Below, one piece after another: positions 20,607 to 36,357 of a stretch of DNA of 64,000 bases. The position numbers and the translations under genes were made by a program. The notes under the pieces are model-generated. The model was not told the origin of the DNA. It saw nothing but the letters and a program-made list of their open reading frames with translations, and searched no databases. Positions within the stretch are counted from its first letter, which is position 1. Every line of letters begins with the position of its first letter. Location: contig VYEX01000024.1 in the NCBI GenBank assembly GCA_009842675.1, forward strand, positions 1-64,000, read 5' to 3'. The DNA is from Acidimicrobiia bacterium (GTDB taxonomy: Bacteria > Actinomycetota > Acidimicrobiia > Acidimicrobiales > Bin134).

Positions 20607-21553
20607 CAGGAGGGCTCTTCCTGCTCAGTGCCGTCGTCGTCGGTCCACACCTCTTCCAGCGAACTCTCCTCTTCCACGTGGTCGATGTGATGGTGCTCCG
20701 ACAGCGGCCCTTCCACCTCGTGAATCTCGCCGCCCTCTTCGGCCTCAAATCCGTGGCCCAGATAGGCCTCGATGACCGCGGGATCGGAAGTGACGTGCTC
20801 GGGGCTGCCCTCCGAGATGATCTCGCCGAAATGGAGCACGCTGATCTTGGGGCAAAGGCTGGTCACCAATTGCAGGTCGTGCTCGATGATGATCACGCAC
20901 AGGTCGCGCTCAGCTTGGATCTCCCGCAATCCCCGCAGCAGCACGGTCACATCGTCGGCTCCCAAGCCGGCTGCGGGCTCATCGAGCAGCACCACGGTGG
21001 GGTTGGCCACCATGGCCCGAGCCACCTCCACCAGTTTCTGTGAACCTAGCGATAGGGCGCCGGCCTCCTCATGGGCCACGTCGGCTAGCCCAAACCGGTC
21101 GAGCATCTCCATGCAGATCTGGCGGGCCTCGGTTTCCTCCCGGCGCTGCTGGGGCAAGAGCAATAACTCGGCAAAATGTCCCCAGCGGAACAAATGGTGA
21201 CGGCCCAACAGGGTGTTCTCCATCACGGTGGCATCGAGAATCAACCGAGGCGCTTGGAACGTGCGTCCGATTCCGGCTTTGACCCGCTGGGTACGGGACA
21301 TCTGAAGCAATTCCTCACCGTGCAGTCGGACTGCCCCTTCGCTGCTGCGGACGTAGCCGGAGATGACGTTGAACACGGTGGTCTTGCCGGCCCCGTTGGG
21401 TCCGATGAGCCCGTTGAAACCGGGGGTGAAGTTGAGGTCAACCCCTATCAGCACTCGGTTGCCTCCGAAGGCCACATGAAGGTCTTCGACGGCCAGCGAA
21501 GCAGTGGCGCCTGTGGGATTGGCACCCGACGGAGCAGTGTCAACGACGCTCAT
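20606..21553 (-). CDS. livG: ABC importer ATP-binding subunit LivG (second system)
   Basis: 315 aa, about 55 longer than a standard LivG. Walker A GPNGAGKTT, signature LSLGSQKLVEVARAM and Walker B VVLLDEPAAGLGADD are present. The last ~50 residues are an acidic, His-containing tail (EAEEGGEIHEVEGPLSEHHH region and onward) not found in typical LivG. The frame opens at 21604, but the ATG at 21553 in the ATGA overlap with livM gives a plausible N-terminus (MSVVDTAPSG) before the ABC domain at about residue 22. Confidence 0.9.
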   Translation of the reverse strand: MSVVDTAPSGANPTGATASLAVEDLHVAFGGNRVLIGVDLNFTPGFNGLIGPNGAGKTTVFNVISGYVRSSEGAVRLHGEELLQMSRTQRVKAGIGRTFQAPRLILDATVMENTLLGRHHLFRWGHFAELLLLPQQRREETEARQICMEMLDRFGLADVAHEEAGALSLGSQKLVEVARAMVANPTVVLLDEPAAGLGADDVTVLLRGLREIQAERDLCVIIIEHDLQLVTSLCPKISVLHFGEIISEGSPEHVTSDPAVIEAYLGHGFEAEEGGEIHEVEGPLSEHHHIDHVEEESSLEEVWTDDDGTEQEEPS

Positions 21554-22647
21554 AGCGAGAAGTCCGTCAAAGTCCCCAGCCTTCGCTGGAGGTCTTTGAC
21601 CCATCGGCTGTCGCGGAGTTGCTTTGGAAGGGCGGCTATCCCGTTAGGCAGAATCAGCACGGCAAGGATGAGGGTGATGCCCAAGATCAAGAACAGCAGC
21701 TTCTGGGTGTCTTGAAGCTTCTGGCGCAGGAATACAAAGAAAATGGCACCGATCAGCGGGCCCCACTTGCGGCTCACACCGCCAACGATCAGCACCACCA
21801 GCAAGAACACCAACAGGCGGGTTCTAAACGCTGAGGGGTTGGCAAAAGAGCTGTTCTGGGCCCACATTGCGCCGGCCAGCGCAGCAGCAAAGGCAGAGAT
21901 CCCAAAGGCCAGCAACTTGTAATAGGTAGAGGAGATCCCCAGCGGGCCGGTGGCGATGTCGATGTCTCGGACTGCCTTCAGGGTGCGTCCCAGCCTGCGG
22001 TTGGTGAGCACGACATACGCCACCATCGTTATGAACAATGCACCCAATGACAGCATGTAGACGCTGAGGATGCGATCGAGTCCTGGTACTCGGAACTGCG
22101 GGACCTGCTTGCCAGTGCCTCCGTTGGTCTTGAGGCCGTCCCACACCTTTTCGTCAAGCCGGATGATGGTGACGATCAGCTCGCCGAGGGCCAGCGTGGC
22201 GATGGCTAGGAAGAAGCCCTTGAGTCGCGCCGCAGGAAAGCCCACAAGAAAGCCAATGATGGCGGCGGCAATGCAAATGACTGGCAGGGCTATGAAAAAC
22301 GGCCAGTCGTATCCGGCCAGTGCTTCTCGGGCATCGCTGGGAGCCGACAGCACGGCAGTGCCGTACGCCCCCAGAGCGAATAGGCCGGCTATGGCAAGGC
22401 CCAACGTGCCCGAATAGCCCACCAACAGGTTGAACCCCACCCCAGCGACCGCGAACGCAAAGACGAACGCAAGGTTGCCGCGACCGAAGTTGTTGCTGCT
22501 GTCGAAAATATCGGTCCAGCCGATGATGTGCATCCAGGGCAACAAGGCCAGAAAGATGAATATGGCGAAGGTGGAAGCCCATTCGGGCACCGCCCTTCTC
22601 AGAGAACTCTTCTGCGGATACAGCGACGGCAAGGCTTGGTCAGTCAT
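21550..22647 (-). CDS. livM: ABC importer permease LivM (second system)
   Basis: 365 aa, about ten hydrophobic segments. The family motif GVGFNLLVGYSGTLGLA lies near residue 70 and the coupling loop RTLKAVRDIDIATGPLGI near residue 230; LIVGGVSRKWGPLIGA is the conserved late segment. It follows livH by 3 nt and overlaps livG by 4. Normal length, unlike the extended LivM at 1-1350. Confidence 0.92.
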   Translation of the reverse strand: MTDQALPSLYPQKSSLRRAVPEWASTFAIFIFLALLPWMHIIGWTDIFDSSNNFGRGNLAFVFAFAVAGVGFNLLVGYSGTLGLAIAGLFALGAYGTAVLSAPSDAREALAGYDWPFFIALPVICIAAAIIGFLVGFPAARLKGFFLAIATLALGELIVTIIRLDEKVWDGLKTNGGTGKQVPQFRVPGLDRILSVYMLSLGALFITMVAYVVLTNRRLGRTLKAVRDIDIATGPLGISSTYYKLLAFGISAFAAALAGAMWAQNSSFANPSAFRTRLLVFLLVVLIVGGVSRKWGPLIGAIFFVFLRQKLQDTQKLLFLILGITLILAVLILPNGIAALPKQLRDSRWVKDLQRRLGTLTDFSL

Positions 22648-22650
22648 CAG

Positions 22651-23748
22651 CTACACCTCGCGGGTCCTAGCAGTACGGCTGAATCCGCCCGGAGCCACTA
22701 AGAGCACCACTACCACCACCAACAACGCGATGGTGGGCTGCAAGCTGGTGCTGATCTGTCCGCCAGCCAGAGCTTCGCCTACTCCGATCAACAGGCCTCC
22801 GGCAAACGTGCCGCCTAGGGAAGTGAACCCGCCCAGCACTGCGGCGATGAACCCCTTGAGGATGAGCCCCTCAGCGCTGCCCAACTCCAACACCGTAGAA
22901 CTGGTGTTGAGGATCATGGCCGCACCGGCGACGAACGTTCCAATGGCCCAGGCAATGAGCGAGACACGGCCAGCGTTGATGCCCAGCAGCCGAGCGGTAT
23001 GGCCATCCTCGGCTATGGCCCGCATCCGGACCCCCCACTTGGACCAGAAGAACAATGCCATCGCGATGGCAATGGCGATCCCCACCGCAATGGTGATGAC
23101 TTGATCCCATCCAATGCGGGTACTTCCCAAATCGAAGGTCTCGCCCGACCAGGGAGCGTCGAATCGCTTGGGGGTTGATCCCCAGAGGTTTTCGATCACC
23201 GACCCCAGTGCGAAATTCAATCCAATGGTGAGCAGCAAGAGCGGGAAGTGATCCACCTTCGACAGCGGTTTCACCCAGTAGCGAATTATCAAGTAGGTGA
23301 GCGCCACGGTGATGATGGCCAAGATGGTTGCAACCCACAACGGGAAGCCCTCGTCGGAAACTGGGAACCAGTCAAGGAAAGTGGGCAAGCCCTCTTTGTT
23401 GAGGAAAAACACACTGGCGTACCCCAATCCAATTGAGGCACAAACCGCCAGTGGTTGGTTGGACAATCCCGTCAGGGGGCGGACCATCAAGAACTGGGTG
23501 ATGGCTCCGAATACAGCGGCAAAGGCCAAGGCTAGGACTATGGCCAGCCAGAACGGCCACCCGACTCCACCCAGTGCAGGATCTCCGGACAAGAACCACG
23601 CCATGAATGCGGCTACCAGCCCCATCTCGGCCATAGCGAAGTTGGGCACATCGGTGGACTTCATGATGACCACGATGGCCAGGCCGATCAGGCTATAGCT
23701 CGACCCAGACTCCAGTCCGGCCACAATCTGCTGGAGGAGTTGATCCAC
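22651..23748 (-). CDS. livH: ABC importer permease LivH (second system)
   Basis: 365 aa with the LivH opening 'QQIVAGLESGSSYSLIGLA', the later EGLILKGFIAAVLGGFTSLGG segment and about eight hydrophobic stretches; LivH is usually about 290-310 aa, so this one is longer. The frame opens at 23805 inside the upstream hairpin; the GTG at 23748 with TAGGAG nine bases upstream is the better start. It is preceded by a perfect 17-bp hairpin that separates it from the binding-protein gene and probably sets its lower expression. Confidence 0.9.
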   Translation of the reverse strand: MDQLLQQIVAGLESGSSYSLIGLAIVVIMKSTDVPNFAMAEMGLVAAFMAWFLSGDPALGGVGWPFWLAIVLALAFAAVFGAITQFLMVRPLTGLSNQPLAVCASIGLGYASVFFLNKEGLPTFLDWFPVSDEGFPLWVATILAIITVALTYLIIRYWVKPLSKVDHFPLLLLTIGLNFALGSVIENLWGSTPKRFDAPWSGETFDLGSTRIGWDQVITIAVGIAIAIAMALFFWSKWGVRMRAIAEDGHTARLLGINAGRVSLIAWAIGTFVAGAAMILNTSSTVLELGSAEGLILKGFIAAVLGGFTSLGGTFAGGLLIGVGEALAGGQISTSLQPTIALLVVVVVLLVAPGGFSRTARTREV

Positions 23749-23768
23749 CTGCTGTGCTCCTAAATGTT

Positions 23769-23806
23769 GTTGGTCCGGGACCTGCAAATGCAGGTCCCGG
23801 ACCAAC
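23769..23806 (-). terminator. Perfect 17-bp intercistronic hairpin between binding protein and livH
   Basis: Bases 23769-23785 pair completely with 23790-23806 around a 4-nt loop (AAAT). It starts 7 nt after the binding-protein stop and lies 20 nt before the livH start. No T-tract follows, so it is more likely a partial attenuator or mRNA-stabilising stem than a full terminator. This is common after the abundant binding protein in importer operons. Confidence 0.8.
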
Positions 23807-23813
23807 TAGCGAA

Positions 23814-25154
23814 TCAGCTCACCGGCGGGAGGAATTCCCGAACCTGAGTCCACGTCATGGTCTCGGCATCGTACTCGGCAATGCCGGCACCAGAAGCGCA
23901 GCCGTGGCCGCCGGGTAGCGGCCCACAGGCCAACACCGGCATGGCGGGAATCAAGATGGGATCGTCCCCCATTGCCTCGGCAGTGGCGTGGAAGTTCTCG
24001 TAGGAGTAGTCGCCGTCCAGCCGGTCGAACAGCTCGAAGAACGCCCTAGCGATCGAGTAGGTCTGAAGGCTGAAGTTGGGGGCCAAGCTCTCTGCGCCGG
24101 GACCGTCGTAGGCTTCCCACATCCCCAGCCAGTGCTGCACGAACTCCATGTCGGAATCGGGTAGAGCACCCTGAAGGGCTCCCAGGTAGCCGTCAGCTGC
24201 CTCCGGGACGGCGAGGCCAACCGTGGTCTGGCCACCTGCCCCAGCCGAACCCTGGTCGGAGCAAACCAATGGGTTGAAGCCAGCCTCGTGGAACTGGTCA
24301 AGCACCAATCCGTTCTGGGTTCCATCGAGCGCGGTGAGCACTGCATCGGCACCGGAGTCGATGACCGACAAAACAGCAGGGGCGACCGCATCGGAAAGCA
24401 CCTCGACCTCTTCCTTGGCCACGATCTCCATACCGTGAACCGGGGCCTGCATATCGATGGCGTTGAACGCCTCTTCGCCCAGCTCATTGTCCTGGCCAAT
24501 GGCCGCCACCTTGGTGGCACCCTGCTCAGCAAAGTGGTCGATGCAGATGCGACCCTGCTCGGTACGGGTTGGGTTGGTCAGGTACACCTCTTGGATGTCC
24601 TGATCAGCCGGTGACACCGGACCCCACAGCGGGGTGCCAGCGGCCTCGATGTCGGGATAGGTAGACGGAATGGCCTGCGAGCCTGCGGTGCCCACAAAGG
24701 CCCACACGTTGTCTTGCTCGATCATCTTGCGGACGTTGGTGACCATCTGCTCGATCTCGAAGCGGTCGTCTTCCCAAACCAGCTCAAAAGTGCAACCGTC
24801 GATGCCGCCGTTGGCGTTGACCTCTTCGACAGCGATGATGATGCCGGCAATCAGGCCCTCACCAGCGACCGCGGCCCGACCGGTGAATGGCTGGGACGAA
24901 CCGATGGTGATCACGCCGCTTTCCTTGTCCACACCTCTCACATCGCCTTCAGTAGCCCAACCGCAGCCGTCGGCCGGGGAAGGGGCGGGCGCTTCGGTGG
25001 CTACCGGGGCGGGTGCTTCAGTGGCTGCCGGAGCGGGCGCTTCGGTTGCTGCCGGAGCGGGCGCGGCACCGTCGTCGTCGTCATCGTTGCCGCATGCGGC
25101 AGCTACCAGGGCCACCGCGAACAGCAGCGCTAGAACCTTCAAGAGCTTGGACAT
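23814..25154 (-). CDS. Periplasmic-type substrate-binding lipoprotein of the importer
   Basis: 446-aa type I binding protein (Peripla_BP_6, Leu/Ile/Val-binding type). The ATG at 25154 has GGAGGGG upstream and begins a lipoprotein signal (LLFAVALVAAACG, lipid Cys near residue 21). A DDDDD run and an Ala/Pro/Thr/Glu tether from a 24-bp tandem repeat follow, then a WATEGDVRGVD linker and the two-lobed domain starting ITIGSSQPFTGRAAVAGEG. Anchored outside the membrane, it delivers ligand to LivH/LivM. The ligand is not readable from sequence; the co-transcribed SDR, VOC and flavoprotein genes suggest an organic acid or ring compound rather than an amino acid. Confidence 0.9.
   Translation of the reverse strand: MSKLLKVLALLFAVALVAAACGNDDDDDGAAPAPAATEAPAPAATEAPAPVATEAPAPSPADGCGWATEGDVRGVDKESGVITIGSSQPFTGRAAVAGEGLIAGIIIAVEEVNANGGIDGCTFELVWEDDRFEIEQMVTNVRKMIEQDNVWAFVGTAGSQAIPSTYPDIEAAGTPLWGPVSPADQDIQEVYLTNPTRTEQGRICIDHFAEQGATKVAAIGQDNELGEEAFNAIDMQAPVHGMEIVAKEEVEVLSDAVAPAVLSVIDSGADAVLTALDGTQNGLVLDQFHEAGFNPLVCSDQGSAGAGGQTTVGLAVPEAADGYLGALQGALPDSDMEFVQHWLGMWEAYDGPGAESLAPNFSLQTYSIARAFFELFDRLDGDYSYENFHATAEAMGDDPILIPAMPVLACGPLPGGHGCASGAGIAEYDAETMTWTQVREFLPPVS
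24987..25058. repeat. Three 24-bp tandem repeats in the binding-protein tether
   Basis: Units at 24987-25010, 25011-25034 and 25035-25058 encode APAPAATE-type octapeptides on the minus strand. They form the flexible linker between the lipid anchor and the binding domain; copy number could vary between strains. Confidence 0.8.
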
Positions 25155-25245
25155 GGATACCCCTCCAAATCGTTGGACGTGCACTGTTCGGACGTACACA
25201 AGTTCGGGACACTAACAGACAATTCTCTATGGCAAACTACCGAAG
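25155..25245. promoter_or_regulatory. Divergent promoter region, binding protein / P450
   Basis: The 91-nt gap must hold promoters for both the importer operon (left) and the P450 (right). A near direct repeat is visible: GTTGGACGTGCAC (25172-25184) and GTTCGGACGTACAC (25186-25199), with a third partial GTTCGGGACAC at 25202. Such spacing would suit a dimeric regulator site, but no regulator gene is nearby. Confidence 0.35.
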
Positions 25246-26451
25246 ATGGCTGAAATCACTGTGACCACGTTCGCCGACGCCCGGGAGTGCTATCGGAACA
25301 AGAACCTTCGCCAAGCCCTATACGACGCCGGTGAAGTGATTATGAGCGATGTTGTGGTGAACCTCCACGGCGATGAACACCGTGATCGCCGACGCCTCGA
25401 AAACCGCCTTTTCCGCCGGGACACATTCACGCTGTACGAGCAAGACCTGTTCCCGCCCATCATCGAGGCGACGCTGGCTCCCCACTTGGCCGAGGGCAAA
25501 GCGGAGCTGGTCAAGCTCGGCCACCAGCTGATGATGAACCTGGCCGCGTTTACCGCCGGGGTGGACCGGCCCCAGGGCACCCCGGAGGAGACCTTCCACC
25601 TCTACGACTACCTGACCACGTTCATCGAGGGGGCCACTTTGGCCCACTACACCGGCGACAGGAACGCCAAAATCGCCGAGATTGAGGACGCGCTAGCGGC
25701 GTTCGACGCCGAGTTCCTCACTCCGGGCATGGACAGACGACAAGCACTGCTTGACCAGTTTGAGGCCGGGGAATTCGAGGCCGACGATCTGCCCAAAGAC
25801 GTGCTGATGGTGCTCATGCACAACCAAGACCGACTGGAGCTGAGCCACGAGTCCATCCGCCGAGAGATCGCCTTCTACATGCTGGCCGGGGCCCACACCT
25901 CGGCCACCGCCTTCAATCGGGTGGTACACAACATCTTCGGCTGGCTGGCCGAGCACCCCGAGGACGAGCACAGGGTGCGCGAAGACCGGCTCTTTGTGCA
26001 GAAGTGCACCCACGAGACCATACGGCTCCAGCCCTCCAGTCCCACCGGGATGCGCTGGGCGCTGGCCGATATCGACTTGTCCAGCGGGGTGCGCATCGCC
26101 GAAGGCGACCGGGTCACGCTGGATCTACTGTCGGTGAACCGGGACCAGTCAGTGTTCGGCGACGACGCCGCTGACTTCAATCCCGACCGAACCCTGCCCG
26201 AGGGCGTCGCCCCGTGGGGGCTGAGCTTCGGGCAGGGGATGCACGCCTGCATCGGCCAAGACCTAGCCTCAGGAGTCTCGTTCGCGGACGGAGACGATTT
26301 GGATGCCCACCTGTTTGGGCTGGTGCCGGCGGCGGTGCAGACCTTGTTCGACCACGGCTGTCGTCCCGACCCCGACGACCCACCGGAGATGGACGCCTCC
26401 ACCACCCGCCCCTACTTCGGCCGCTACCCGGTGGTTTTCGCCGCGGCTTAG
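25246..26451 (+). CDS. Cytochrome P450 (second of two paralogues)
   Basis: 401 aa. Heme loop FGQGMHACIG with C335, ExxR as HETIR, I-helix LAGAHTSATAFN. The N-terminus (YRNKNLRQALYDAGEVIMSD, DEHRDRRRLENRLFRR) is closely similar to the P450 at 12415-13608, so the two arose by duplication. The I-helix and substrate-recognition regions differ, suggesting different substrates. It is divergent from the importer operon, so the imported compound may be its substrate. The stop shares three bases with the stop of the opposing amidohydrolase gene. Confidence 0.93.
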   Translation: MAEITVTTFADARECYRNKNLRQALYDAGEVIMSDVVVNLHGDEHRDRRRLENRLFRRDTFTLYEQDLFPPIIEATLAPHLAEGKAELVKLGHQLMMNLAAFTAGVDRPQGTPEETFHLYDYLTTFIEGATLAHYTGDRNAKIAEIEDALAAFDAEFLTPGMDRRQALLDQFEAGEFEADDLPKDVLMVLMHNQDRLELSHESIRREIAFYMLAGAHTSATAFNRVVHNIFGWLAEHPEDEHRVREDRLFVQKCTHETIRLQPSSPTGMRWALADIDLSSGVRIAEGDRVTLDLLSVNRDQSVFGDDAADFNPDRTLPEGVAPWGLSFGQGMHACIGQDLASGVSFADGDDLDAHLFGLVPAAVQTLFDHGCRPDPDDPPEMDASTTRPYFGRYPVVFAAA

Positions 26452-27770
26452 TCGAGCAAATCCCGAGTGAGTATCTGGGAGGCCCAGTTGGCCACCTTCT
26501 CGCCGGCGATGGGCGCCCGGGTGGGCCAGGGGCGATCCAGGTCCACCAACTGCCCCCGGCTGATCACGCTGCGGAGGTTGGAACGGTCGGCCAGCACGGT
26601 TACATCAGCAGCCGGGTCGCCGTCTACTACCAGCACGTCGGCGGCCATGCCAGGGGTCAGGGTGCCCACCTCGCCCTCCATTCGCAGGCCGATGGCCCCA
26701 TTGGCGGTGGCGCAGGCGATGGCCTGAAGCGGCGACAGCCCCACCGACTCCACCAGCACCTCCATCTCTCGGGCATGCCAGTGGCCATAGGGAGTGAGGG
26801 CGAACCCCGACTCCGAGCCGCACAGCAGGGGCACTCCGGCGTCGTGGGCCTTGGCCATCATCTTGGCGGTGGCCTCGATCTCGCCCCGGAACACGTCCTG
26901 CATGCCCTCACCGGCGCCTACCAGGTGGCCGTAGTCGGCCAGGTTGGCCAGGAAGGTGAAGGTGGGCATGAGCGCAGCGCCGGCCTCGATCACCGCCTCT
27001 AGGCCGGCTTCGTCCATGAACGAGGCGTGGAGGATGAGGTCGACTCCGGCCTCGGCGCAAGCCCGGGTGCTGTCGGCTGAGCGGGCGTGGGCCATAACCG
27101 GGGTCTCCAGTTCGTGGGCGGTGTCGCACACCGCCTTCAGCTCCTCGGGCTTCCAGGCCAATAGCTCGCCCTTGTGACGGGGGATCGAGCCGGTGGCATG
27201 GATCTTGATCCAATCGGCCCCGTACTTGATGTGGCGGCGGGTCATCTGGATCATCTCGTCGACGGTGGTCACCACCTGGGCGTACCCAACCACCCCGTTG
27301 TCGGGAATGAGCCGCCCGGCGGTGCCGCCCACTGCGGTGACCAAGGCCTGCACTCCGGTGGCCATGCGGGGGCCTTCCACCACGCCGGCGTCCACGGCGT
27401 CGCGCAGCGATGGGCCCATGGAGAACAACGTGTCGGGGTCGCAGAACCCGGTCACCCCGGCCAGAAGCAGCTTTTGGAGGTTCTGGGCGGCAATGAGGGC
27501 AGCCAGGGTGTGGTCGCGGTGGAAGAACAGCTCGTCGTTGGACTGCACGTCGTCGAAGGTGCAGTGGACGTGGGCGTCGATGAGTCCGGGCATGACCGTG
27601 CATCCGGCGGCGTCGATGACGGTGGCGTTCGTCTGGTCAGCCCCAGCATCAGGGCCAATGGCGGCAATCCGGTCGCCCTCCAGCAACACCGCCGTGTTGG
27701 GCTGGGGCGGGGCGCCGGTGCCGTCGATCACAGTTCCCCCGGTGATCACGATGGGCGTCGGCTCAGACAT
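26448..27770 (-). CDS. Metal-dependent amidohydrolase (imidazolonepropionase/prolidase-like)
   Basis: 440 aa, amidohydrolase_1 type. Metal ligands can be followed: HxH in LIDAHVHC, a bridging Lys in WIKIHATG, His in MAHARS and ILHASF. The last ligand, normally Asp in a GTDAG-type loop, is Glu here (GSESG). The C-terminal GTLTPGMAADVLVVDGDP is the usual small beta-sandwich part. Such enzymes hydrolyse cyclic or linear amides. It is the last gene of the SDR - unknown (27786) - amidohydrolase run, 15 nt after the unknown gene. Substrate unknown. Confidence 0.87.
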   Translation of the reverse strand: MSEPTPIVITGGTVIDGTGAPPQPNTAVLLEGDRIAAIGPDAGADQTNATVIDAAGCTVMPGLIDAHVHCTFDDVQSNDELFFHRDHTLAALIAAQNLQKLLLAGVTGFCDPDTLFSMGPSLRDAVDAGVVEGPRMATGVQALVTAVGGTAGRLIPDNGVVGYAQVVTTVDEMIQMTRRHIKYGADWIKIHATGSIPRHKGELLAWKPEELKAVCDTAHELETPVMAHARSADSTRACAEAGVDLILHASFMDEAGLEAVIEAGAALMPTFTFLANLADYGHLVGAGEGMQDVFRGEIEATAKMMAKAHDAGVPLLCGSESGFALTPYGHWHAREMEVLVESVGLSPLQAIACATANGAIGLRMEGEVGTLTPGMAADVLVVDGDPAADVTVLADRSNLRSVISRGQLVDLDRPWPTRAPIAGEKVANWASQILTRDLLD

Positions 27771-27785: not shown

Positions 27786-28649
27786 TCAATCCCCCAGCAG
27801 GGCTGCGGCCGCGTCTTTGACGGACATTCCCACCTCGACGCCCCGGTCGCGGGCCGGCTGGTTGCACGCGCTGATTATCCCCTCATCGTACGCCTTGAAC
27901 GCATCGCCCACCGGAGCACTCCACGCATCGCAGCACGCTCCGGCCAGTCCGTGGGCCTCGGTGATGGCCAATCCGGCGATGCCAGCGTCGTTCTTGCTGC
28001 GGCCCCCGTCGGAGCAGATGAATCCGTGGGGACTCACCTCCAAGAGAAAGTCGGCACCGCTGCGCCCGGTGTGGCCGGCGGTGACCAGCACATTGCGGGA
28101 GTCCTCGGGCAGGGCGAACACGATGGAGTCGGTGACCACGATCTGTCGTCCGGCGTCGGTGGTGGCCTTGACCTCGCGGCGAATCTTGGTGCCCTCGTCC
28201 ACCTCGCCGGGATCGTTGTTCAACAGCAGCTTGGCCGCCTCGGCCACCGCCATGCCCTCCACAACGCCGCAGCGCTCGGCGTAGATGTTGAGCCGGGATA
28301 TGACCCCGGTCTCAAAGAGATCTAGGCCGTTGCCAAGCTCTGCGCTCATCCCGTCGGCGGTGGCCGCGGGAATGCCCAACGCCTCCAGGAACCACAGCCC
28401 GGAGATACCCGCGCCGTCTTTGCCGATGCAACCGTCGTGGCCGATGACCCCCTTAGGCCGATGGGGGGCCATGAGGCGGGCGGGAAGCACGCCCAAATAC
28501 GACGACGGCACCACCACGTCAGTGTCCCGGTTGCGGGCGTCCACATAGCGGGCCGAGTCCATGGTCACGATCCGGCGGTCGCCGTCGGTGTAGACCACCT
28601 CTTGGGGGTGATCCTCCTCGTTGGCCAGCAGTGGGGCTTCTTCAGGCAC
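27786..28649 (-). CDS. Unrecognised internally duplicated protein (paralogue of 36410-37252)
   Basis: 287 aa, family not recognised. Two similar halves (~45-143 and ~186-285) share the pattern '.D.G.....AGIxGL..LEAxG.....D......G......EGIIS..N..A...GV..GM.V..AA..LL'. Examples are HDGCIGKDGAGISGL (71-85) and CSDGGRSKNDAGIAGL (212-227), each about 50 residues before GVVEGMAVAEAAKLLL and GVEVGMSVKDAAAALL. The second half keeps LVTAGHTGRSG. From memory the unit resembles DUF1805/YunC-type domains in its '.GI..GM....AL..L' end, but this is unchecked. It has no signal peptide or membrane segment. GTG start. It lies 15 nt before the amidohydrolase, suggesting a role in the same pathway. Confidence 0.75.
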   Translation of the reverse strand: MPEEAPLLANEEDHPQEVVYTDGDRRIVTMDSARYVDARNRDTDVVVPSSYLGVLPARLMAPHRPKGVIGHDGCIGKDGAGISGLWFLEALGIPAATADGMSAELGNGLDLFETGVISRLNIYAERCGVVEGMAVAEAAKLLLNNDPGEVDEGTKIRREVKATTDAGRQIVVTDSIVFALPEDSRNVLVTAGHTGRSGADFLLEVSPHGFICSDGGRSKNDAGIAGLAITEAHGLAGACCDAWSAPVGDAFKAYDEGIISACNQPARDRGVEVGMSVKDAAAALLGD

Positions 28650-28703: not shown

Positions 28704-29537
28704 CTACAGCCCGGTGCGACCGGCTTCGCGGATCATGGGGGCGTAGTCGGCGAAGCCGGGGGCGTCGGCGCGGGCTCCGGTGGTGAACCCGGCGTCAGTG
28801 GCCAGGGTGTGGCCGCTGGTGTAGCCCGACTCGTCGGAGGCCAGCCACAGAGCGGCGTTGGCCACGTCGGCGGCTAGGCCGGGGCGGCCGATCAGCGGGG
28901 AGTTGGCGGTGAGCTCTTCTCGGGCGCCGTCCATGTTGGTGTGATCGCCGGTGTGGGCGAAGGCCACCATCGGAGTGAGCATCGACGCAGGGGCAATGCA
29001 GTTGACCCGGATGCCGAAGCGGCACAGCTCTGCGGCGGCGTTCTTGGTCAGGCCCACCACGGCGTGCTTGGCCGCGGCATATGCGTGAGGGCCCAAGCCG
29101 CCCATCACCCCGGCGGTGCTGGACATGGAGATGATCGAGCCGGTCATCCGGGGCTTCATCACCCGTGCGGCGTGCTTGACGCCGTAGAACACCCCGTGGA
29201 GCAGCACGTCGATGCTGGCGTGCCACTCATCGGCCGGCGTGGTGTCGACGGGGCCGACCGCGCCGACGATGCCGGCGTTGTTGTACATCACGTCGAGCTG
29301 GCCGAATTCGGCAACCGCGGCGTCCACCAGTCCGGCCACGTCGTCTTCGGAGGTCACGTCGCAATGAACGTAGATGGCGTCGCCCAAGGATTTGGTCAAT
29401 TCTTGGCCGACGTCGTCCTGGATGTCGCCAATGGCCACCCTTGCGCCCTCTTCCACGAAACGCTCAGCCGCGGCCCGCCCGATGCCACTGGACGCCCCGG
29501 TGATGGCTGCCACCCGCCCTTCCAGTCTTCCGCTCAT
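28704..29537 (-). CDS. Short-chain dehydrogenase/reductase
   Basis: 277-aa SDR with TGASSGIG, NNAGI, a catalytic Ser (SMSSTAG) and YAAAK. IGDIQDD at strand 2 points to NAD(H). The frame opens 11 codons earlier, but the ATG at 29537 has AGGAGG six bases upstream. It is the first gene of the minus-strand run with the unknown protein and the amidohydrolase, and divergent from the SnoaL-like gene with a 50-nt gap that must hold both promoters. Confidence 0.9.
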   Translation of the reverse strand: MSGRLEGRVAAITGASSGIGRAAAERFVEEGARVAIGDIQDDVGQELTKSLGDAIYVHCDVTSEDDVAGLVDAAVAEFGQLDVMYNNAGIVGAVGPVDTTPADEWHASIDVLLHGVFYGVKHAARVMKPRMTGSIISMSSTAGVMGGLGPHAYAAAKHAVVGLTKNAAAELCRFGIRVNCIAPASMLTPMVAFAHTGDHTNMDGAREELTANSPLIGRPGLAADVANAALWLASDESGYTSGHTLATDAGFTTGARADAPGFADYAPMIREAGRTGL

Positions 29538-29587
29538 CGTTGCCTCCTGTGAATTGACTGCGCCCGGCACCGTAATCTGAGCGGCCT

Positions 29588-30097
29588 ATGGAGACCAGAT
29601 CAGAAGACGCACAGGGCCTAGACGTGGAGCGCATTCAAGACCTCTTGGATCGCGACGCCATTCGCCACATCCAGATTCGCTACGCCTGGAGTCTGGACAA
29701 CCACCGGTGGGAGGCGCTCAAGGAGGTCTTCTTGCCCGACGCGGTGGCCGACTATCGGGGAGAGCGATTCGAGGGGCTCGAGGCCATCGTGGCCAAGTGC
29801 GCCTCCTCGCTTGAGCCAGCCGACGCCAGCCAGCACATCAACGGCTGTCACTGGGCGCAGGTGGACGGCGACAAGGCCATCGCCGGCTGCTACTTCATCG
29901 CCACCAAGTACATCGCCGACACCCCCGGCGGTGACACCTTCATCGTCGGCGGCAAGTACATCGACCAAATGGTCCGTACTCCCGACGGCTGGCGCATAGC
30001 CCACCGCCTGCTGGAGCAGACCTTCCTCGACGGAAACCCCGAAGTAGAGGCCGTCTCCAACGCCCGCTGGGCCGCCCGCCAGCAAGACGGTGGCTAG
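29588..30097 (+). CDS. SnoaL-like (NTF2-fold) protein, scytalone dehydratase type
   Basis: 169 aa. The opening 'RIQDLLDRDAIRHIQIRYAW..D...W..L..VF.PD.V.DY' is the standard SnoaL_4 start; HINGCHWAQVDGDKA and WRIAHRLLEQTF follow in order. These proteins are small dehydratases, isomerases or cyclases; the Tyr/Asp/His positions are compatible with catalysis but not proof of it. It is a single gene whose stop interlocks with the stop of the opposing amidohydrolase (CTAG). Confidence 0.8.
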   Translation: METRSEDAQGLDVERIQDLLDRDAIRHIQIRYAWSLDNHRWEALKEVFLPDAVADYRGERFEGLEAIVAKCASSLEPADASQHINGCHWAQVDGDKAIAGCYFIATKYIADTPGGDTFIVGGKYIDQMVRTPDGWRIAHRLLEQTFLDGNPEVEAVSNARWAARQQDGG

Positions 30098-31074
30098 AGC
30101 CGGAGCAGGCGGGTGGCGTTGGCGTTGAGGGTTTCGGCCAGGTCGGCCACGTCCGGGCCGGTGCCGCGGTCCCAGCCGCCGAAGTTGGTGCCGTAGACCA
30201 GGCGGTCGGTGCCGTATTGCTCCAGAGCGAGATTGAGCTCGGCGGGGCCGGTGATGTGGCAGTCGAACCATAGGCGGCTGAGAGCTCGGTCGAAAGCCCC
30301 TGGTTCTTTGATCCATTCGGGAGCGGCGGGGCGGCGCTCGGCCAGCTTGCGGAGCTTGGACAAGAGCACCGGCGTGGTGCCCCCGCCATGGGACAGGCAA
30401 AGATCCAAGTCAGGGTGGCGCTCGGTAACCCCGCCGAACACCAGCGTGGCCACCGCCACGGTCTCCTCGTAGGAGTACTCCAGCACCAAGTCGAGGTCCC
30501 AGCGGCGCAGCCGGGGATCGAGCAGCGGGCCGTCGATGCCCGACTGGGTGGGGTGCAAGAAGTGGGGCACGTCCAACTCCATACACAGCGACCACAGTTG
30601 GTCGAGGGCCGGGTCGTCCAGCGGGGTGCCGAAATCGGTGCCGGTGTAGCCGGCCAGCAGGCCCAAGTCCCGCACCGCCCGCTGAAGCTCCGTGCAGGCC
30701 GCGTCCACATCTTGCATGGGCAGCGCGGCCAAGCCGACGAAGCGGTCGGGGTGGGCAGCCACCGCGGCAGCCAGATCATCGTTGTGGCGGCGGCAGAAGT
30801 CGATGGCCAACTGGGGCTCGATGAAGTGCAGGTAGGTGAGCGGATTGGGCGACAGAGCCTGCACTGCTATCCCCTGGGCGTCCATGGCCTCGAGGCGCAT
30901 GTCCAGCTCGATGAACAGCGAACCCCGGTAGGCAACCCCATCGAGCTGGTAGCCGCCCACCCGGAACCAGGGGGTGCCGTCGTCGTGGGCACCGATCTCC
31001 GGGCCGCACGGCCCGGCCGCGCCCATCGTGCCCTCAAGCACGATGTGGGCGTGGACGTCGATGAGCCCGGTCAT
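30094..31074 (-). CDS. Amidohydrolase_2 family hydrolase/decarboxylase
   Basis: 326 aa, ACMSD-type amidohydrolase. The HxH motif is present at the N-terminus (LIDVHAHIV), as are LSHGGG (metal His) and a late WFDCHITG. The conserved Asp of the final YGSD[FY]P-type motif is Asn here (YGTNFGG), confirmed from the codon AAC. The family includes ring-cleavage decarboxylases and hydrolases. The frame is open far upstream, but the ATG at 31074 is preceded by GGAGG and starts MTGLIDVHAH. It is the last gene of the acyl-CoA dehydrogenase-SDR-CMD-amidohydrolase run. Confidence 0.83.
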   Translation of the reverse strand: MTGLIDVHAHIVLEGTMGAAGPCGPEIGAHDDGTPWFRVGGYQLDGVAYRGSLFIELDMRLEAMDAQGIAVQALSPNPLTYLHFIEPQLAIDFCRRHNDDLAAAVAAHPDRFVGLAALPMQDVDAACTELQRAVRDLGLLAGYTGTDFGTPLDDPALDQLWSLCMELDVPHFLHPTQSGIDGPLLDPRLRRWDLDLVLEYSYEETVAVATLVFGGVTERHPDLDLCLSHGGGTTPVLLSKLRKLAERRPAAPEWIKEPGAFDRALSRLWFDCHITGPAELNLALEQYGTDRLVYGTNFGGWDRGTGPDVADLAETLNANATRLLRL

Positions 31075-31117
31075 GGAGGTGAGCCTCCGCTGCCTGCCTT
31101 GGAGGTGGCGGGCAAAC

Positions 31118-31876
31118 CTATTGGCGGCCTTCCATGATCCCGTCGGCGCCGGGCAGCCAGGAGGCCACCCCGGAGATGGGGATGGCGCACACCACCGCCT
31201 CGGTGATCTCGGCCTCGGTGGCCCCGGCGTTGCGGGCGCCATTGGCGTGGATGTTCACAAACCGGCTGGAAAACTCGGCAGCGTTGATGGTGCACAGCAG
31301 CAGCTCCACGTGCTTGGCGTCGAGCATGTTCTCAGCCAGCGACCACTGCCGCATGAGCACGTAGCCCTCCAAGGCCCGAGGGGCGTTGTCGGCCATCACC
31401 TCGATGTAGTCGGGAACGAAGCCGAAATAGCTCTGGAAGTAATCCAGTGCCGCTTGGCGATCCAGTGAGAAATCGGGAATCGGCTCGGTGGACTGGTCGG
31501 CGGCGATGTCGAACGCCTGGTCAATGGCCCGGGCGAAGGCGTTGTAGGTGGCCTCGCCCCGGGAGATGAGCACGGCCAGCGATGCGCCCCGGGCGTCGCT
31601 CAGACTCAACCCCAGCTCGCGAGACCGGGTCATCTCCCTAAGGGTTTGCTCCGGCTGGCACCGAACCGCGGCGGCGCAGGCCATGTACAGCGCCTTGGCC
31701 CACGCGGGGCAGGCGCCGTCGCGGTCGGTCACGTCACGGATGCGGGCGTAGCCCTCGGCAAACTTGGGGGAGATGGCGGCCAGCTCCCCGCCAGCCAGTG
31801 CGGGACTGCCCAACTCAGTGTGGACAGCGTTGTTGGACCCAGCTTGCGCATCTGTTGCAGCAGCTTGCATGGTCAT
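31118..31876 (-). CDS. Carboxymuconolactone decarboxylase-like (AhpD fold) protein
   Basis: 252 aa, two CMD-like helical modules. The first spans ~45-130 (FAEGYARIRD... KALYMACAAAVRCQPE), the second ~140-245 (VMADNAPRALEGYVLMR... ELLLCTINAAEFSSRFVNIHANGARNAG). The AhpD redox pair C-x2-C is absent, so this is unlikely to be a peroxidase partner; CMD-type members act on lactones in aromatic-acid breakdown. GGGAGG lies six bases before the ATG. It sits in the acyl-CoA dehydrogenase operon between the SDR and the amidohydrolase. Confidence 0.75.
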   Translation of the reverse strand: MTMQAAATDAQAGSNNAVHTELGSPALAGGELAAISPKFAEGYARIRDVTDRDGACPAWAKALYMACAAAVRCQPEQTLREMTRSRELGLSLSDARGASLAVLISRGEATYNAFARAIDQAFDIAADQSTEPIPDFSLDRQAALDYFQSYFGFVPDYIEVMADNAPRALEGYVLMRQWSLAENMLDAKHVELLLCTINAAEFSSRFVNIHANGARNAGATEAEITEAVVCAIPISGVASWLPGADGIMEGRQ

Positions 31877-31918: not shown

Positions 31919-32677
31919 TCAAAGCTTGGACACTTCTCCGCCGTCGATCACGAAACACGAACCGGTAACGAACCCGGACGCCTCCGATGCTAGGTAACAG
32001 ACCAGCGGTCCGAGCTCATCGGGGTGACCCATGCGGCGGGCGGGAATCTTGCGCAACCGGGCAGCCAGCGTGTCGGGATCGCCCAGCACCGCGGCCTGGG
32101 CATCGGTTTCAAACGCACCGGGGGCGATCACGTTCACCCGGATGTTGTAGCGGGCCCACTCTCCGGCCAGCGCCTCGGTAAGCCGCAACAACCCGCCTTT
32201 AGACGCCGAGTAGGCGGCCAGAGTCGGCTTGCCCTTGAGCCCAGATGTCGAGGCCACGTTGATGACAGATCCGGGCCGCCCGGCGTCGATCCAATGGCGG
32301 GCGGCTCGTCGGGCCAAGGCCGCCGGGGCGGCCAGGTTCACGGCCAGCACCTCGTCGAACACATCGTCGGGCTGGTCGACGAACTTGGAGGCGGGAGCGA
32401 TGCCGGCGTTGTTGACCACTGAGTCGAGTCGGCCGAACCGGCTCACCGCCTCGTCCACCAGCCCGGCCACTGCGTCGCGGTCTCGCATGTCACACGGCAC
32501 GGCAGCCACCGCGTCGCCCAGTTGGTCGGCCAGCGCATCAAGGGCTTTCTCAGAGCGGGCCGCAGCCACCACTTTGGCCCCTTCGGCCACCATGGCCCGG
32601 ACTGCGGCCTCTCCCAAACCCCGGCTGGCCCCGGTCACCACCGTCACGTGGCCGCCAAGGCCCCAATCCAGCGCCAT
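31919..32677 (-). CDS. Short-chain dehydrogenase/reductase
   Basis: 252-aa SDR with TGASRGLGEA, NNAGI, a Ser in VASTSG and YSASK. AARSEKAL at strand 2 suggests NADP(H). It starts 3 nt after the acyl-CoA dehydrogenase stop. Next to an acyl-CoA dehydrogenase and opposite a BadI-like hydrolase and a ligase, it could be the 2-hydroxyacyl-CoA dehydrogenase step of a BadH-like route, but that is inferred only from context. Confidence 0.9.
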   Translation of the reverse strand: MALDWGLGGHVTVVTGASRGLGEAAVRAMVAEGAKVVAAARSEKALDALADQLGDAVAAVPCDMRDRDAVAGLVDEAVSRFGRLDSVVNNAGIAPASKFVDQPDDVFDEVLAVNLAAPAALARRAARHWIDAGRPGSVINVASTSGLKGKPTLAAYSASKGGLLRLTEALAGEWARYNIRVNVIAPGAFETDAQAAVLGDPDTLAARLRKIPARRMGHPDELGPLVCYLASEASGFVTGSCFVIDGGEVSKL

Positions 32678-32680
32678 CGC

Positions 32681-33829
32681 CTACTCCTCGCCTTGCTGGT
32701 CGGCCACTTCGTCGCACAGCCGGGTGGCGATACCCAGCCGAAGCACTTCGGAGGCCCCCTCATAGATGCGCATGGGTCGAGCCTGTCGGTAGTAGCGCTC
32801 GATGTTGGAGCCTCGTATGAGCCCCCATCGGCCCATCACCTGCACGCAGCGGTCCACCACCCGACTGGCCGCCTCGGTGGCGGCCAGCTTGGCCAGCGAC
32901 GACCGGTCGAGGTGGGCCGACGGATCCTCCCGGGCGGCCTCGGCGGTGGCGTAGGCCAGCAGGCGGGTGGCCTCCAACTCGGCCCAAGAGTCGGCCAGAA
33001 GTCCCGCCACCGGTCCCAGCCGCACCAGCGGTCGACCGAACTGCTCTCGGGTGGCCGCGTGGCTGGCGGCACAGGTCAGCGCACCGTCCATCAGCCCCAC
33101 GGCGGCCCCAGCCACCGAGATTCGGAATACCGACAGGGTGGCCAGCACATGGCGGAAACCAGCGCCGGGATCGCCCAGCCGGGCAGAGGCCGGCAATCGC
33201 ACCCCGTCGAAGATCACCTCGCCCAGCACATGGGGGGCGATGATCTCCGGCGAGGGCTCGATCGACACGCCCGGGGCATCGGCGGGCACCAGCACCAGCG
33301 AGAACCGGTTCTCCTCCCGGGCCATGGTGGTGTAGAAGCCGGCCGCCCCGGCGTTGGAGATGAACGATTTTGCCCCGTTCAGCTCCACCTCATCGCCGTG
33401 GTCAATCAACGTGGTCTCGATCCCCCGCAGGTCGGACCCGGCCACCGGTTCGGTCAGGGCCAGCGCGGCCAGCACCTCGGCACGAGCCACTCGGGGCAGC
33501 CACTGCTCACGCTGCTCGTCGGTGCCGGCTACGGCAATGGCGTAGCTGCCGATGCCCTGGAGGGCGAACAACGAGTCCAAGTGCGACGAAGCCCGCATGA
33601 GGGCCTCCCGAACCACGCACACCGCCAGCGGATCCACTCGCTCGTGGCGACCGCCATGAGCGGCCGGCACCATCAGCGAGCAAAGGTCGCTGGCCCGCAG
33701 CACATCGAGGGTGGGCTGGTGGATGTGGCTGGCCTCGTCGGCCTCCGCGGCGAACGCGGCCACTTGGCGGGCCACCGCCCGGGCCTCTTCTTGAATGGCC
33801 CGTGTGTCGGAGTCGAGCTCGAACGCCAT
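32681..33829 (-). CDS. Acyl-CoA dehydrogenase
   Basis: 382-aa FAD enzyme with the standard three-part fold: an N-terminal helical domain, a middle beta domain with ALTEPVAGSDLRG and a flavin-contact FISNAG, and a C-terminal helical domain. The catalytic Glu is in RIYEGASEVLR near residue 364, the medium/short-chain position. It introduces a 2,3 double bond into an acyl-CoA and passes electrons to an electron-transfer flavoprotein not encoded here. It is the first gene of a four-gene minus-strand operon and divergent from the BadI-like gene across 55 nt. Confidence 0.93.
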   Translation of the reverse strand: MAFELDSDTRAIQEEARAVARQVAAFAAEADEASHIHQPTLDVLRASDLCSLMVPAAHGGRHERVDPLAVCVVREALMRASSHLDSLFALQGIGSYAIAVAGTDEQREQWLPRVARAEVLAALALTEPVAGSDLRGIETTLIDHGDEVELNGAKSFISNAGAAGFYTTMAREENRFSLVLVPADAPGVSIEPSPEIIAPHVLGEVIFDGVRLPASARLGDPGAGFRHVLATLSVFRISVAGAAVGLMDGALTCAASHAATREQFGRPLVRLGPVAGLLADSWAELEATRLLAYATAEAAREDPSAHLDRSSLAKLAATEAASRVVDRCVQVMGRWGLIRGSNIERYYRQARPMRIYEGASEVLRLGIATRLCDEVADQQGEE

Positions 33830-33884: not shown

Positions 33885-34655
33885 GTGAGCGACATCATCG
33901 TCGAGCGAAACGACCGAATCGTCTGGCTGAGGCTGAACCGCCCCGAGCGATTGAACTCCTATGACCGCAACACCATCGACGAGATCATCGCCGCATTCCG
34001 GGAGCACGTCGACGCCGGGGTCGTGGTGATCACTGGCCAAGGCCGGGCGTTTTGCGCCGGCGGGTATCTGGCCAACCTGGCCGAAGCCAACTTCTATGAG
34101 CTGCGGACGATGTTCTACGGCTCGCTGGAGCTGTTCGACGCCATCCGCAACGCCCCCATGCCGGTGATCGCCGCGGTGAACGGCCCCGCCTTCGGGGGCG
34201 GCAACGAACTGGTGGTGGCCTGCGACTTCGCCATCGCCGCCGAGTCGGCCGAGCTGGGCCAGACCGGGGTCAAGGTGGGCAGCGCCCCGGTGCTGGGGGG
34301 CACCAACCTTTTGGCCATGACCGTCGGGGAGAAGCGGGCCAAGGAAGTGGCCTTTTTGTGCCGTAAATACGCCGCCCAGCAGGCCTGCGACATGGGGTGG
34401 ATCAACGCAGTGGTGCCCGACGAAGAACTGGAGGGCGAGGTCTTGCAGTGGTGCGAGGAGCTGCTGGCCATGAGCCCCCGCTATCTGGAGGCGGCCAAGA
34501 TCAGCTCCAACGTGTACTGGAACCAGCTGCGGGACAACATGGCCTCGGGGCTGGGCATTCTGGCCCAGGCCATCGGGTCGCCCGACATGGTCGAGGGTGC
34601 CACCGCGTTCATGGAGAAGCGCCGCCCGCAATTCCCCCCGAGAACCGCCCGATGA
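33885..34655 (+). CDS. Crotonase of the BadI/MenB type (ring-cleaving or ring-forming hydrolase)
   Basis: 256 aa, enoyl-CoA hydratase superfamily. The oxyanion-hole segments are GRAFCAGG and GPAFGGGNEL. It lacks the two Glu of true enoyl-CoA hydratases; instead it has GQTGVKVGS, VGEKRAKEVAFLCRKY and a C-terminal EKRRPQF. These are features of 1,4-dihydroxy-2-naphthoyl-CoA synthase (MenB) and 2-ketocyclohexanecarboxyl-CoA hydrolase (BadI). No other men genes are present, whereas a ligase, acyl-CoA dehydrogenase and SDR are, so a BadI-like ring-opening role is favoured. GTG start with AAGGGG upstream. Confidence 0.82.
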   Translation: MSDIIVERNDRIVWLRLNRPERLNSYDRNTIDEIIAAFREHVDAGVVVITGQGRAFCAGGYLANLAEANFYELRTMFYGSLELFDAIRNAPMPVIAAVNGPAFGGGNELVVACDFAIAAESAELGQTGVKVGSAPVLGGTNLLAMTVGEKRAKEVAFLCRKYAAQQACDMGWINAVVPDEELEGEVLQWCEELLAMSPRYLEAAKISSNVYWNQLRDNMASGLGILAQAIGSPDMVEGATAFMEKRRPQFPPRTAR

Positions 34656-34686
34656 CCCGTCGCGGCCCGAGCCCCTGGCCTGTTCC

Positions 34687-36357
34687 GTGACCCGCTACTA
34701 CGACCAGTACCGGCCCACCTTCGACGACAAGGCGCAGTGGAGCGCGCCGACGGTGCTGGCCGAGCGGGCCCGAACCCACGGCGACAAGACCTACCTAGAG
34801 GTGGGCTGGACCGGCGAGCGGTTCACCTATGCCCAGAGCTACGACATCGCCCAGCGGGTGGGGCGGGGACTGCTGGCCGGCGGGGCCGCTCCCGGCGACC
34901 GGCTGCTCATCATGGCGCCCAACTCGGCGGCCTACATCTGGAGCTGGTTGGGCTCGGCTGTGGCCGGTATGGCCGAGGTGCCGATCAACACCGCCTACCG
35001 GGGATCATTCCTCGAACACCAGACCACCACGGTGTCGCCGTCGGCAGCGGTGATCCACGCCGACTACGCCGACCGGTTTGTCGAGCTGCCCGAGGTGGTG
35101 GGCTCCATCGGCTGCTTCTACCTGCTGGGCGACGACGGCGAGATCGCCAAGGGCGGACGGGTGCTGGACGAGGCCGGGCTGCGGTGGCAGCGCTGGGACA
35201 CCCTGCTGAGCAACGACAGCGCCGATCAAGCCCTGCCCGAGGTGTCGTATCGGGACCTGGGGTCGGTGTTCTTCACGTCGGGCACCACCGGGCTGTCCAA
35301 AGGGGTGATGATGCCCCACGCCCACATGCACCTGTTCGCCGATGAGTGCGTGTCGCTCACTCGGCTGACCGACACAGATGCCTACATGTCGTGCGGTCCG
35401 CTGTTCCACGGCAACTCCCACTTCCTGGCCGCCTATCCGGCGCTGATCGCCGGAGCCCGCTACGTGCTCCAAGAGCGGTTCTCGGCCAGCCATTGGCTCG
35501 ACCAAGTGCAGGAAAGCGGGGCCACCGTCACCAACTTCGTCGGGGTGATGATGGACTTCGTGTGGCAGCAGCCCCCCACCGAAGCCGATGCCGACAACCA
35601 GCTGCGGTGCGTGTTCGCCGCTCCCACCATGTCGAGCGTGCTGGAGGAGTTCAAGGCCCGATTCGGCATCGAGGCATTCGTAGAGGTGTTCGGGCTAACC
35701 GAGACGTGCATGCCCATCCTCACCCCCTACGGGGAGGATCGCCCGGCGGGGGCGGCCGGGCTCTTGAACCGGGACTGGTTCGACATCCGCCTGGTGGACC
35801 CCGACACCGATGAGGAGGTGCCGGTGGGAGAGGTTGGCGAGCTGGTGGTTCGCTCCCGGGTTCCGTGGACCACGTGCATGGGCTACTACGGCATGGCCGA
35901 GCAAACCTGGGACGCCTTCAGGAATCTGTGGTTCCACACCGGCGACGGACTCCGCCGGGATGCCGAGGGCTGGTACTACTGCGTCGACCGCCTCAAAGAC
36001 GCCATCCGCCGCCGGGGGGAGAACATCAGCTCGTTCGAGGTGGAGCAGGCCTTGACGGCCCATGAGGCCATAGCCGAAGTGGCGGTGGTGGCAGTACCCG
36101 CCGACCAGGAAGCCGGAGAGGACGAGGTGCTGGCCGCGGTGGTTCTGGAGCCCGACGCCGCCCTCAGCGCCGATGAGTTCTGGGCGTATGCCGACCGTCG
36201 ACTGCCCTACTTCGCGGTGCCCCGCTACGTGCGCTTCACCCCCGAGCTGCCCAAGACCCCGTCGGAGAAAGTGCGGAAGGTGGAGCTGCGGGACCAGGGG
36301 GTGGACGATCAGACATTCGACCGGGGCCCCATCAGCCGACCGAAGGATCGCAGGTGA
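34687..36357 (+). CDS. Acyl-CoA synthetase (ANL superfamily, crotonobetaine/carnitine-CoA ligase-like)
   Basis: 556 aa. P-loop FTSGTTGLSKGV, VFGLTETCMP, the hinge region YYCVDRLKDAIRRRGENIS and the catalytic-Lys tail LPKTPSEKVRK are intact. IRRRGENISSFEVE is typical of the CaiC-like branch. The frame opens 30 codons earlier inside the crotonase gene; the GTG at 34687, 31 nt after that stop, gives a natural N-terminus (VTRYYDQYRP). It activates a carboxylic acid for the dehydrogenase and crotonase next door. Confidence 0.92.
   Translation: MTRYYDQYRPTFDDKAQWSAPTVLAERARTHGDKTYLEVGWTGERFTYAQSYDIAQRVGRGLLAGGAAPGDRLLIMAPNSAAYIWSWLGSAVAGMAEVPINTAYRGSFLEHQTTTVSPSAAVIHADYADRFVELPEVVGSIGCFYLLGDDGEIAKGGRVLDEAGLRWQRWDTLLSNDSADQALPEVSYRDLGSVFFTSGTTGLSKGVMMPHAHMHLFADECVSLTRLTDTDAYMSCGPLFHGNSHFLAAYPALIAGARYVLQERFSASHWLDQVQESGATVTNFVGVMMDFVWQQPPTEADADNQLRCVFAAPTMSSVLEEFKARFGIEAFVEVFGLTETCMPILTPYGEDRPAGAAGLLNRDWFDIRLVDPDTDEEVPVGEVGELVVRSRVPWTTCMGYYGMAEQTWDAFRNLWFHTGDGLRRDAEGWYYCVDRLKDAIRRRGENISSFEVEQALTAHEAIAEVAVVAVPADQEAGEDEVLAAVVLEPDAALSADEFWAYADRRLPYFAVPRYVRFTPELPKTPSEKVRKVELRDQGVDDQTFDRGPISRPKDRR

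Follow-up and report, generated by a model that had tools for sequence, protein, structure and literature searches.

Which kind of protein is encoded at positions 27786 to 28649 of the window, and which task could it fulfill in the catabolic gene cluster that surrounds it? The window is the whole stretch of 64,000 nucleotides that was analyzed, taken from contig VYEX01000024.1 of an Acidimicrobiia bacterium (assembly GCA_009842675.1). Here, an open reading frame on the reverse strand, which begins with GTG and is preceded by the sequence AAGGAG, codes for a protein of 287 amino acids (P0001), called protein A in the following.

Doubled architecture of protein A and its paralogue

The open reading frame is conserved in 155 near relatives, which were confirmed in one scan of genome contigs and range from 97–98% down to about 50% identity. 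An earlier note on this DNA had proposed an internal tandem duplication, and this is borne out by the alignment of the two halves, which extends over most of their length and reaches a local score of 163 (500 shuffles: mean 30.8, sd 5.1, maximum 55). The N-terminal half comprises residues 17 to 148 approximately (28206–28601, reverse strand) and the C-terminal half residues 155 to 287 (27789–28187, reverse strand). Both contain the motifs in the order that had been described, namely DS, S[HY]/GH, a D-G loop, LEA/TEA-x-G, G-[ND], GIIS-x2-N and GV-x2-GM. Judged from its sequence, protein A contains one domain of about 125 residues twice in tandem, as a result of an internal duplication. The doubled layout, for which the earlier note knew no precedent, is thus real in protein A, but it is common across the relatives and not unique. 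Furthermore, single-domain forms of about 131–149 amino acids exist.

A paralogue, protein B, which is absent from the earlier note, is encoded 7.8 kb away on the forward strand (36410–37252), 52 nt after the open reading frame of an acyl-CoA ligase. It has 280 amino acids, is 54% identical to protein A, and its halves align with a score of 149 versus a shuffled maximum of 56. In a tree of 108 doubled proteins of the CoA type, which is the operon type of the window described below, A and B form clades with a support of 100. Each of the seven Actinomycetota whole genomes in which the CoA type was detected carries one A and one B copy, while the Comamonadaceae loci contain B-type copies only. 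Four other genomes that were searched as a whole have two copies, of which either both are doubled or one is doubled and the other a single-domain form. In a tree of the separate halves, N- and C-terminal halves are well separated, but modest support is given to a grouping of the N-terminal with the C-terminal halves of the CoA type. The tree is therefore compatible with a single old duplication as well as with two separate ones.

Family assignment and predicted fold

The family had been left unnamed in the earlier note, which agrees with the database searches: protein A is not covered by any sequence family of Pfam, NCBIfam or the PDB. Beyond the partial Pfam matches to DUF1805 and IMS described below, NCBIfam and PDB sequence searches with P0001 gave nothing of weight, and PDB sequence searches with P0001 and the profiles A4 and A5 yielded only an IMS-like local motif and chance matches. 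No thiolase or OB-fold Pfam match was obtained within protein A; only its operon neighbors match these families. Plasmid-borne relatives whose record includes an annotation are all called "hypothetical protein", and the literature searched on DUF1805/YunC, TA1206, OiaX/apionate as well as the abscisic-acid and apiose routes contained nothing on the unnamed family. Two apparent exceptions among the relatives were discarded, an ABC-transporter match (L006) as a chance match and a long open reading frame resembling a fusion (L151) as read-through of a GC-rich, low-complexity frame.

Similarity to DUF1805 (PF08827) is visible on sequence level and weak. P0001 reaches 23.6 bits, where the curated Pfam cut-off is 29.5, and its match is confined to the final part of the model. 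Paralogue B (17.6 bits) and the other members listed (15.7–24.0 bits) lie under the cut-off as well. A DUF1805 match with E ≤ 0.01 is nevertheless found in 57 of 68 members, the best E-value being 3e-8. The comparison of the half domain with DUF1805 by hhalign resulted in an E-value of 1.2e-4 and a probability of 55% over 79 columns; for the doubled alignment the probability is 18.6%. The GYIMCG-type motif of DUF1805 in front of the conserved helix is missing, and the family has [FL]NDAG, GHDG or CSDGG instead, together with its own motif set DS ... S[HY]/GH ... [ND]D-x-G ... IG[DN] ... S-x2-N in each half. Because of the cut-off and the missing GYIMCG-type motif, protein A is not filed as DUF1805. 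In the genomes of the relatives, the family model detected no DUF1805 protein.

An AlphaFold2 model of protein A, built with 68 relatives, has a pLDDT of 93.7 and a pTM of 0.81. Strands (E) and helices (H) are predicted in the N-terminal half as E17-22, E25-30, E45-48, H54-63, E67-71, H83-90, E95-98, H108-114, E116-120, H122-126 and H135-144, and in the C-terminal half as E158-163, E169-173, E187-193, H196-205, E209-213, H219-231, E237-240, H250-256, E258-262, H264-268 and H277-286. The order of elements is therefore identical in the halves, with one exception: the C-terminal half has an additional short helix (181-185). The same order is predicted for a single-domain relative of 134 amino acids from another genome (L172; pLDDT 94.8, pTM 0.90).

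For protein A, the best match among solved structures is TA1206 (1qw2), aligned to the C-terminal half with a Z-score of 8.6, an rmsd of 2.9 and 93 of 102 residues, followed by the next entry at Z 4.9; a Z-score near 8 is about the typical best value for models without a clear match. For the L172 model, 1qw2 is again the best entry (Z 7.5, 89 residues aligned; next Z 5.9). Foldseek alone gave no significant PDB E-value for either model, and a search of a viral structure library with the model returned nothing. Since such Z-scores are commonplace and the Foldseek E-values not significant, the assignment is based on the gap to the next entries, the coverage and the independent sequence hints. 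1qw2 itself is a DUF1805 protein by Pfam (2e-20). A sequence that we take to be YunC matches 1qw2 at 6e-6 when used as query, and plasmid relatives of this query are annotated as DUF1805. Taken together, a DUF1805-like alpha/beta fold of each half is supported by the models. Of the DUF1805/YunC-like fused pseudo-dimer suggested previously, the fold of the halves hence stands, but the sequence remains under the DUF1805 cut-off.

A structure of DUF1805 was solved in 2004. We know of no function for DUF1805, and none was found in the literature searched, so that the fold gives no reaction for protein A. Protein A may behave as an enzyme or as a ligand-binding pseudo-dimer with this fold.

Gene neighborhood in the window and among the relatives

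In the window, protein A is encoded between a short-chain dehydrogenase gene (28704–29570, reverse strand, PF13561), located 54 nt upstream on the same strand, and an Amidohydrolase_1 gene (26448–27770, reverse strand, PF01979) located 15 nt downstream. The altered metal ligand that had been noticed in this amidohydrolase is confirmed: the position of the final Asp ligand is occupied by Glu (GSES) in every relative checked. Since it is kept in all of these, from two lineages, it represents a trait of a subfamily and not a broken gene. The amidohydrolase gene directly 3' of A is found only in close relatives of the window, where it takes the place of an OB-fold gene. Beyond it lies a cytochrome P450 gene (25246–26451, forward strand, PF00067). 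On the other side follow genes for a SnoaL-like protein (29588–30097, forward, PF13577), an Amidohydrolase_2 protein (30094–31242, reverse, PF04909) and a carboxymuconolactone-decarboxylase-like protein (31118–31876, reverse, PF02627). Next to these are four genes that cluster with annotated genes of L018, encoding a short-chain dehydrogenase (31919–32677, reverse; cluster 5, together with a glucose 1-dehydrogenase), an acyl-CoA dehydrogenase (32681–33829, reverse), an enoyl-CoA hydratase (33885–34655, forward) and, beside paralogue B, the AMP-dependent acyl-CoA ligase (34597–36357, forward; AMP-binding protein in L018), whose true start is probably downstream of the start of the open reading frame at 34597.

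Genes of an ABC transporter of the branched-chain amino-acid type (19896–25199, reverse strand) lie beside the cluster, and this adjacency is kept in close relatives of the window; it is a probable uptake system for the substrate. In the 3.4 Mb genome to which the window belongs, the OB-fold family PF01796 (ChsH2) is matched 18 times, once within the window near 12038–12226 (reverse strand), which suggests many thiolase/OB-fold catabolic modules in this genome.

The matches listed include Acidimicrobiia, Pseudonocardia, Comamonadaceae, Woeseiaceae and Sphingomonas, among others, and members of the family are present on haloarchaeal plasmids as well. Among sampled whole genomes, the family occurs in 36 of 337 from the class of Sphingomonas (Alphaproteobacteria, about 11%), in 4 of 296 from the class of the window (a chance match left out), and in 3 of 321 and 3 of 346 from the classes of Comamonas and Pseudonocardia, respectively, where matches near E 5e-4 covering one motif are left out of the counts.

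A catabolic setting had been anticipated, and the survey of the relatives' neighborhoods revealed three kinds of catabolic operon. In the CoA type, to which the window belongs, the A gene is followed in many Actinomycetota by genes for an OB-fold/ChsH2 protein, an acyl-CoA ligase and a thiolase-like protein; in many of these loci it overlaps the OB-fold or the ligase gene by 1–4 nt. The B gene follows the acyl-CoA ligase gene, with a 4-nt overlap in several loci. In the TPP (thiamine-diphosphate) type, 19 of the 28 alphaproteobacterial loci contain genes for E1-alpha, E1-beta or acetolactate-synthase-like proteins at a distance of up to about 8 kb. One such alphaproteobacterial operon (L162, 7989–16357) encodes an IclR regulator, E1-alpha, E1-beta, a TRAP transporter, an acetolactate-synthase-like enzyme and the doubled protein; it has no E2 gene between its members and would represent an unfamiliar catabolic route. 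In the sugar-acid type, the genes immediately following the doubled members of haloarchaea encode an OiaX-like RuBisCO-like protein and an OiaK-like kinase. The single-domain members of two actinobacterial genomes (L172 and L173) have as neighbors an OiaK-like kinase or a RuBisCO-like protein, together with a zinc alcohol dehydrogenase and a GMC oxidoreductase; these clusters may encode a branched sugar-acid pathway. From these arrangements we infer as the common trait of the three types an adjacent enzyme for carbonyl-directed carbon-carbon cleavage.

Asymmetric halves, proposed role and comparison with known systems

In both halves of the model, the polar residues of protein A that are strongly conserved are found in loops directly behind strands, which is a usual place for an active site or a site of ligand binding. 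Here, the two halves differ. All 47 CoA-type proteins compared, counted beyond the A copy of the window, have S-Y in the N-terminal and G-H in the C-terminal half at the position of the SHG motif, and retain the NDAG aspartate in both. In P0001, this corresponds to S50-Y51 (28497–28502), where the Ser of the presumed ancestral S-H-G is kept and the His lost, to G192-H193 (28071–28076), where the Ser is lost and the His kept, and to the aspartates D72 (28434–28436) and D214 (28008–28010), all on the reverse strand; the latter is invariant in 68 of 68 proteins. On the contrary, 19 TPP-type proteins retain S-H in both halves, and so do the single-domain proteins (5 of 5) in their one domain. Three more distant members are mixed: the S-Y/G-H pattern recurs in L019, both halves of L148 have S-H, and L149 deviates. 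As the opposite decay is fixed within a single clade, it may represent one event and not repeated evidence. The simplest reading of this pattern predicts that a symmetric dimer with two sites became a pseudo-dimer with one site, with the Ser contributed by one half and the His by the other.

The reading we favor, with a probability of roughly 0.4, is that protein A would be an enzyme in which a single, composite active site is left, acting on oxo-acid or acyl-CoA intermediates. Its ancestor would have been a single-domain, dimer-forming protein with sites built from S-H-G, N-D-A-G, S-A-[RK]-I-G-D and S-x2-N, and duplication and fusion would have created the one-chain pseudo-dimer. In the subfamily of the window, one site may have been kept (Ser50 of the N-terminal and His193 of the C-terminal half) and its twin (Tyr51/Gly192) lost. 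The weakest step concerns the chemistry: a soluble enzyme might interconvert or prepare a carbonyl intermediate, most likely by isomerization or tautomerization, for the adjacent carbon-carbon cleaving enzyme, which depending on the subfamily would be the thiolase/OB-fold pair, a thiamine-diphosphate enzyme or a RuBisCO-like protein. The wider proposal is a tentative one and somewhat doubtful, namely that a new enzyme family with DUF1805-like fold carries out carbonyl chemistry of one kind on behalf of three carbon-carbon cleaving systems that are unrelated to each other, and that the fused form obtained its single composite site via complementary loss of residues.

In many loci the gene is translationally coupled to that of the ligase or of the OB-fold protein, and the A/B pair looks like subunits of one complex. 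This would also fit a non-catalytic protein, which would serve to bind the pathway intermediate, an acid or acyl-CoA, or as a scaffold for the acyl-CoA ligase and the thiolase/OB-fold enzymes. OB-fold (DUF35) partners do likewise for thiolase-like aldolases, whose site they shape (PMC12329534). This role is rather unlikely, as a dedicated scaffold is ill-suited to a family whose related forms stand beside unrelated enzymes such as TPP enzymes and RuBisCO-like proteins, and the conserved polar residues behind the strands look like an active site. A hydrolase or lactonase with a Ser-His-Asp set formed by S-H-G and N-D-A-G could also be considered, since Ser, His and Asp are among the most conserved residues in the single-domain and TPP-type members, and amidohydrolases and other hydrolases are encoded in the neighborhood. 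However, the structure searches with both models matched no hydrolase fold with a significant score, and the Ser and the His belong to different halves in the subfamily of the window, which makes a hydrolase improbable.

Even less weight is given to a role as sensor or as regulator of the operon, with a pathway intermediate as ligand: the domain is small, resembles a ligand-binding one and is always found beside catabolic genes, but a DNA-binding domain is missing from the protein, an IclR regulator is already present in several operons of Alphaproteobacteria and haloarchaea, and both paralogues are kept together. The only Pfam match of P0001 above its cut-off is IMS (PF00817; 28.3 versus 23.2), by which protein A would be a fragment of a Y-family polymerase. 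This match covers 28 of 148 profile positions, in the strand-helix stretch GIIS-x2-N-x2-A-x3-GV-x2-GM, and does not extend to a match of the catalytic domain. Polymerase structures match the same 24–30 residues only, and the remaining fold is DUF1805-like, so that the predicted fold contradicts a polymerase and the chance of this origin is negligible.

If the favored enzyme with a composite site is correct, protein A would be a clear case of a fused dimer turned asymmetric. It would fill a gap in the catabolic clusters of sponge-associated and marine Acidimicrobiia and of about a tenth of the sampled Alphaproteobacteria. Since the family is widespread and its genes adjoin those of carbon-degrading enzymes of very different kinds, its role is probably of importance for several degradation routes. 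It comprises single-domain and doubled forms, lies in well-defined catabolic operons and has named neighbors (OiaX-like, TPP enzymes, thiolase/OB-fold), so that its chemistry could be found via known intermediates.

Among known systems, the 3-oxo-isoapionate pathway with the RuBisCO-like decarboxylase OiaX and the kinase OiaK resembles the genes directly after the haloarchaeal doubled members, and a kinase of that type is found near single-domain members. In contrast, no such genes lie near the gene of the window, and in the loci of the relatives the models are matched below their equivalog cut-offs, by which the substrate may differ. With the thiolase-like aldolases Ltp2/ChsH2 and Sal/Shy, the family shares the coupling to genes for an OB-fold (DUF35) protein, an acyl-CoA ligase and a thiolase-like protein in many Actinomycetota. 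Unlike these, protein A is neither a thiolase nor an OB-fold protein, and in the window its gene does not adjoin an OB-fold/thiolase pair. From DUF1805, represented by YunC of Bacillus and TA1206 of Thermoplasma, protein A is distinguished by two fused domains, the additional conserved motifs DS, SHG, NDAG and SARIGD, the lack of the GYIMCG motif, a score under the Pfam cut-off and the setting in a catabolic operon. Both have in common the predicted fold of each half, the C-terminal strand-helix motif G-[VI]-x2-GM with an EA helix, and perhaps a weak similarity of their profiles.
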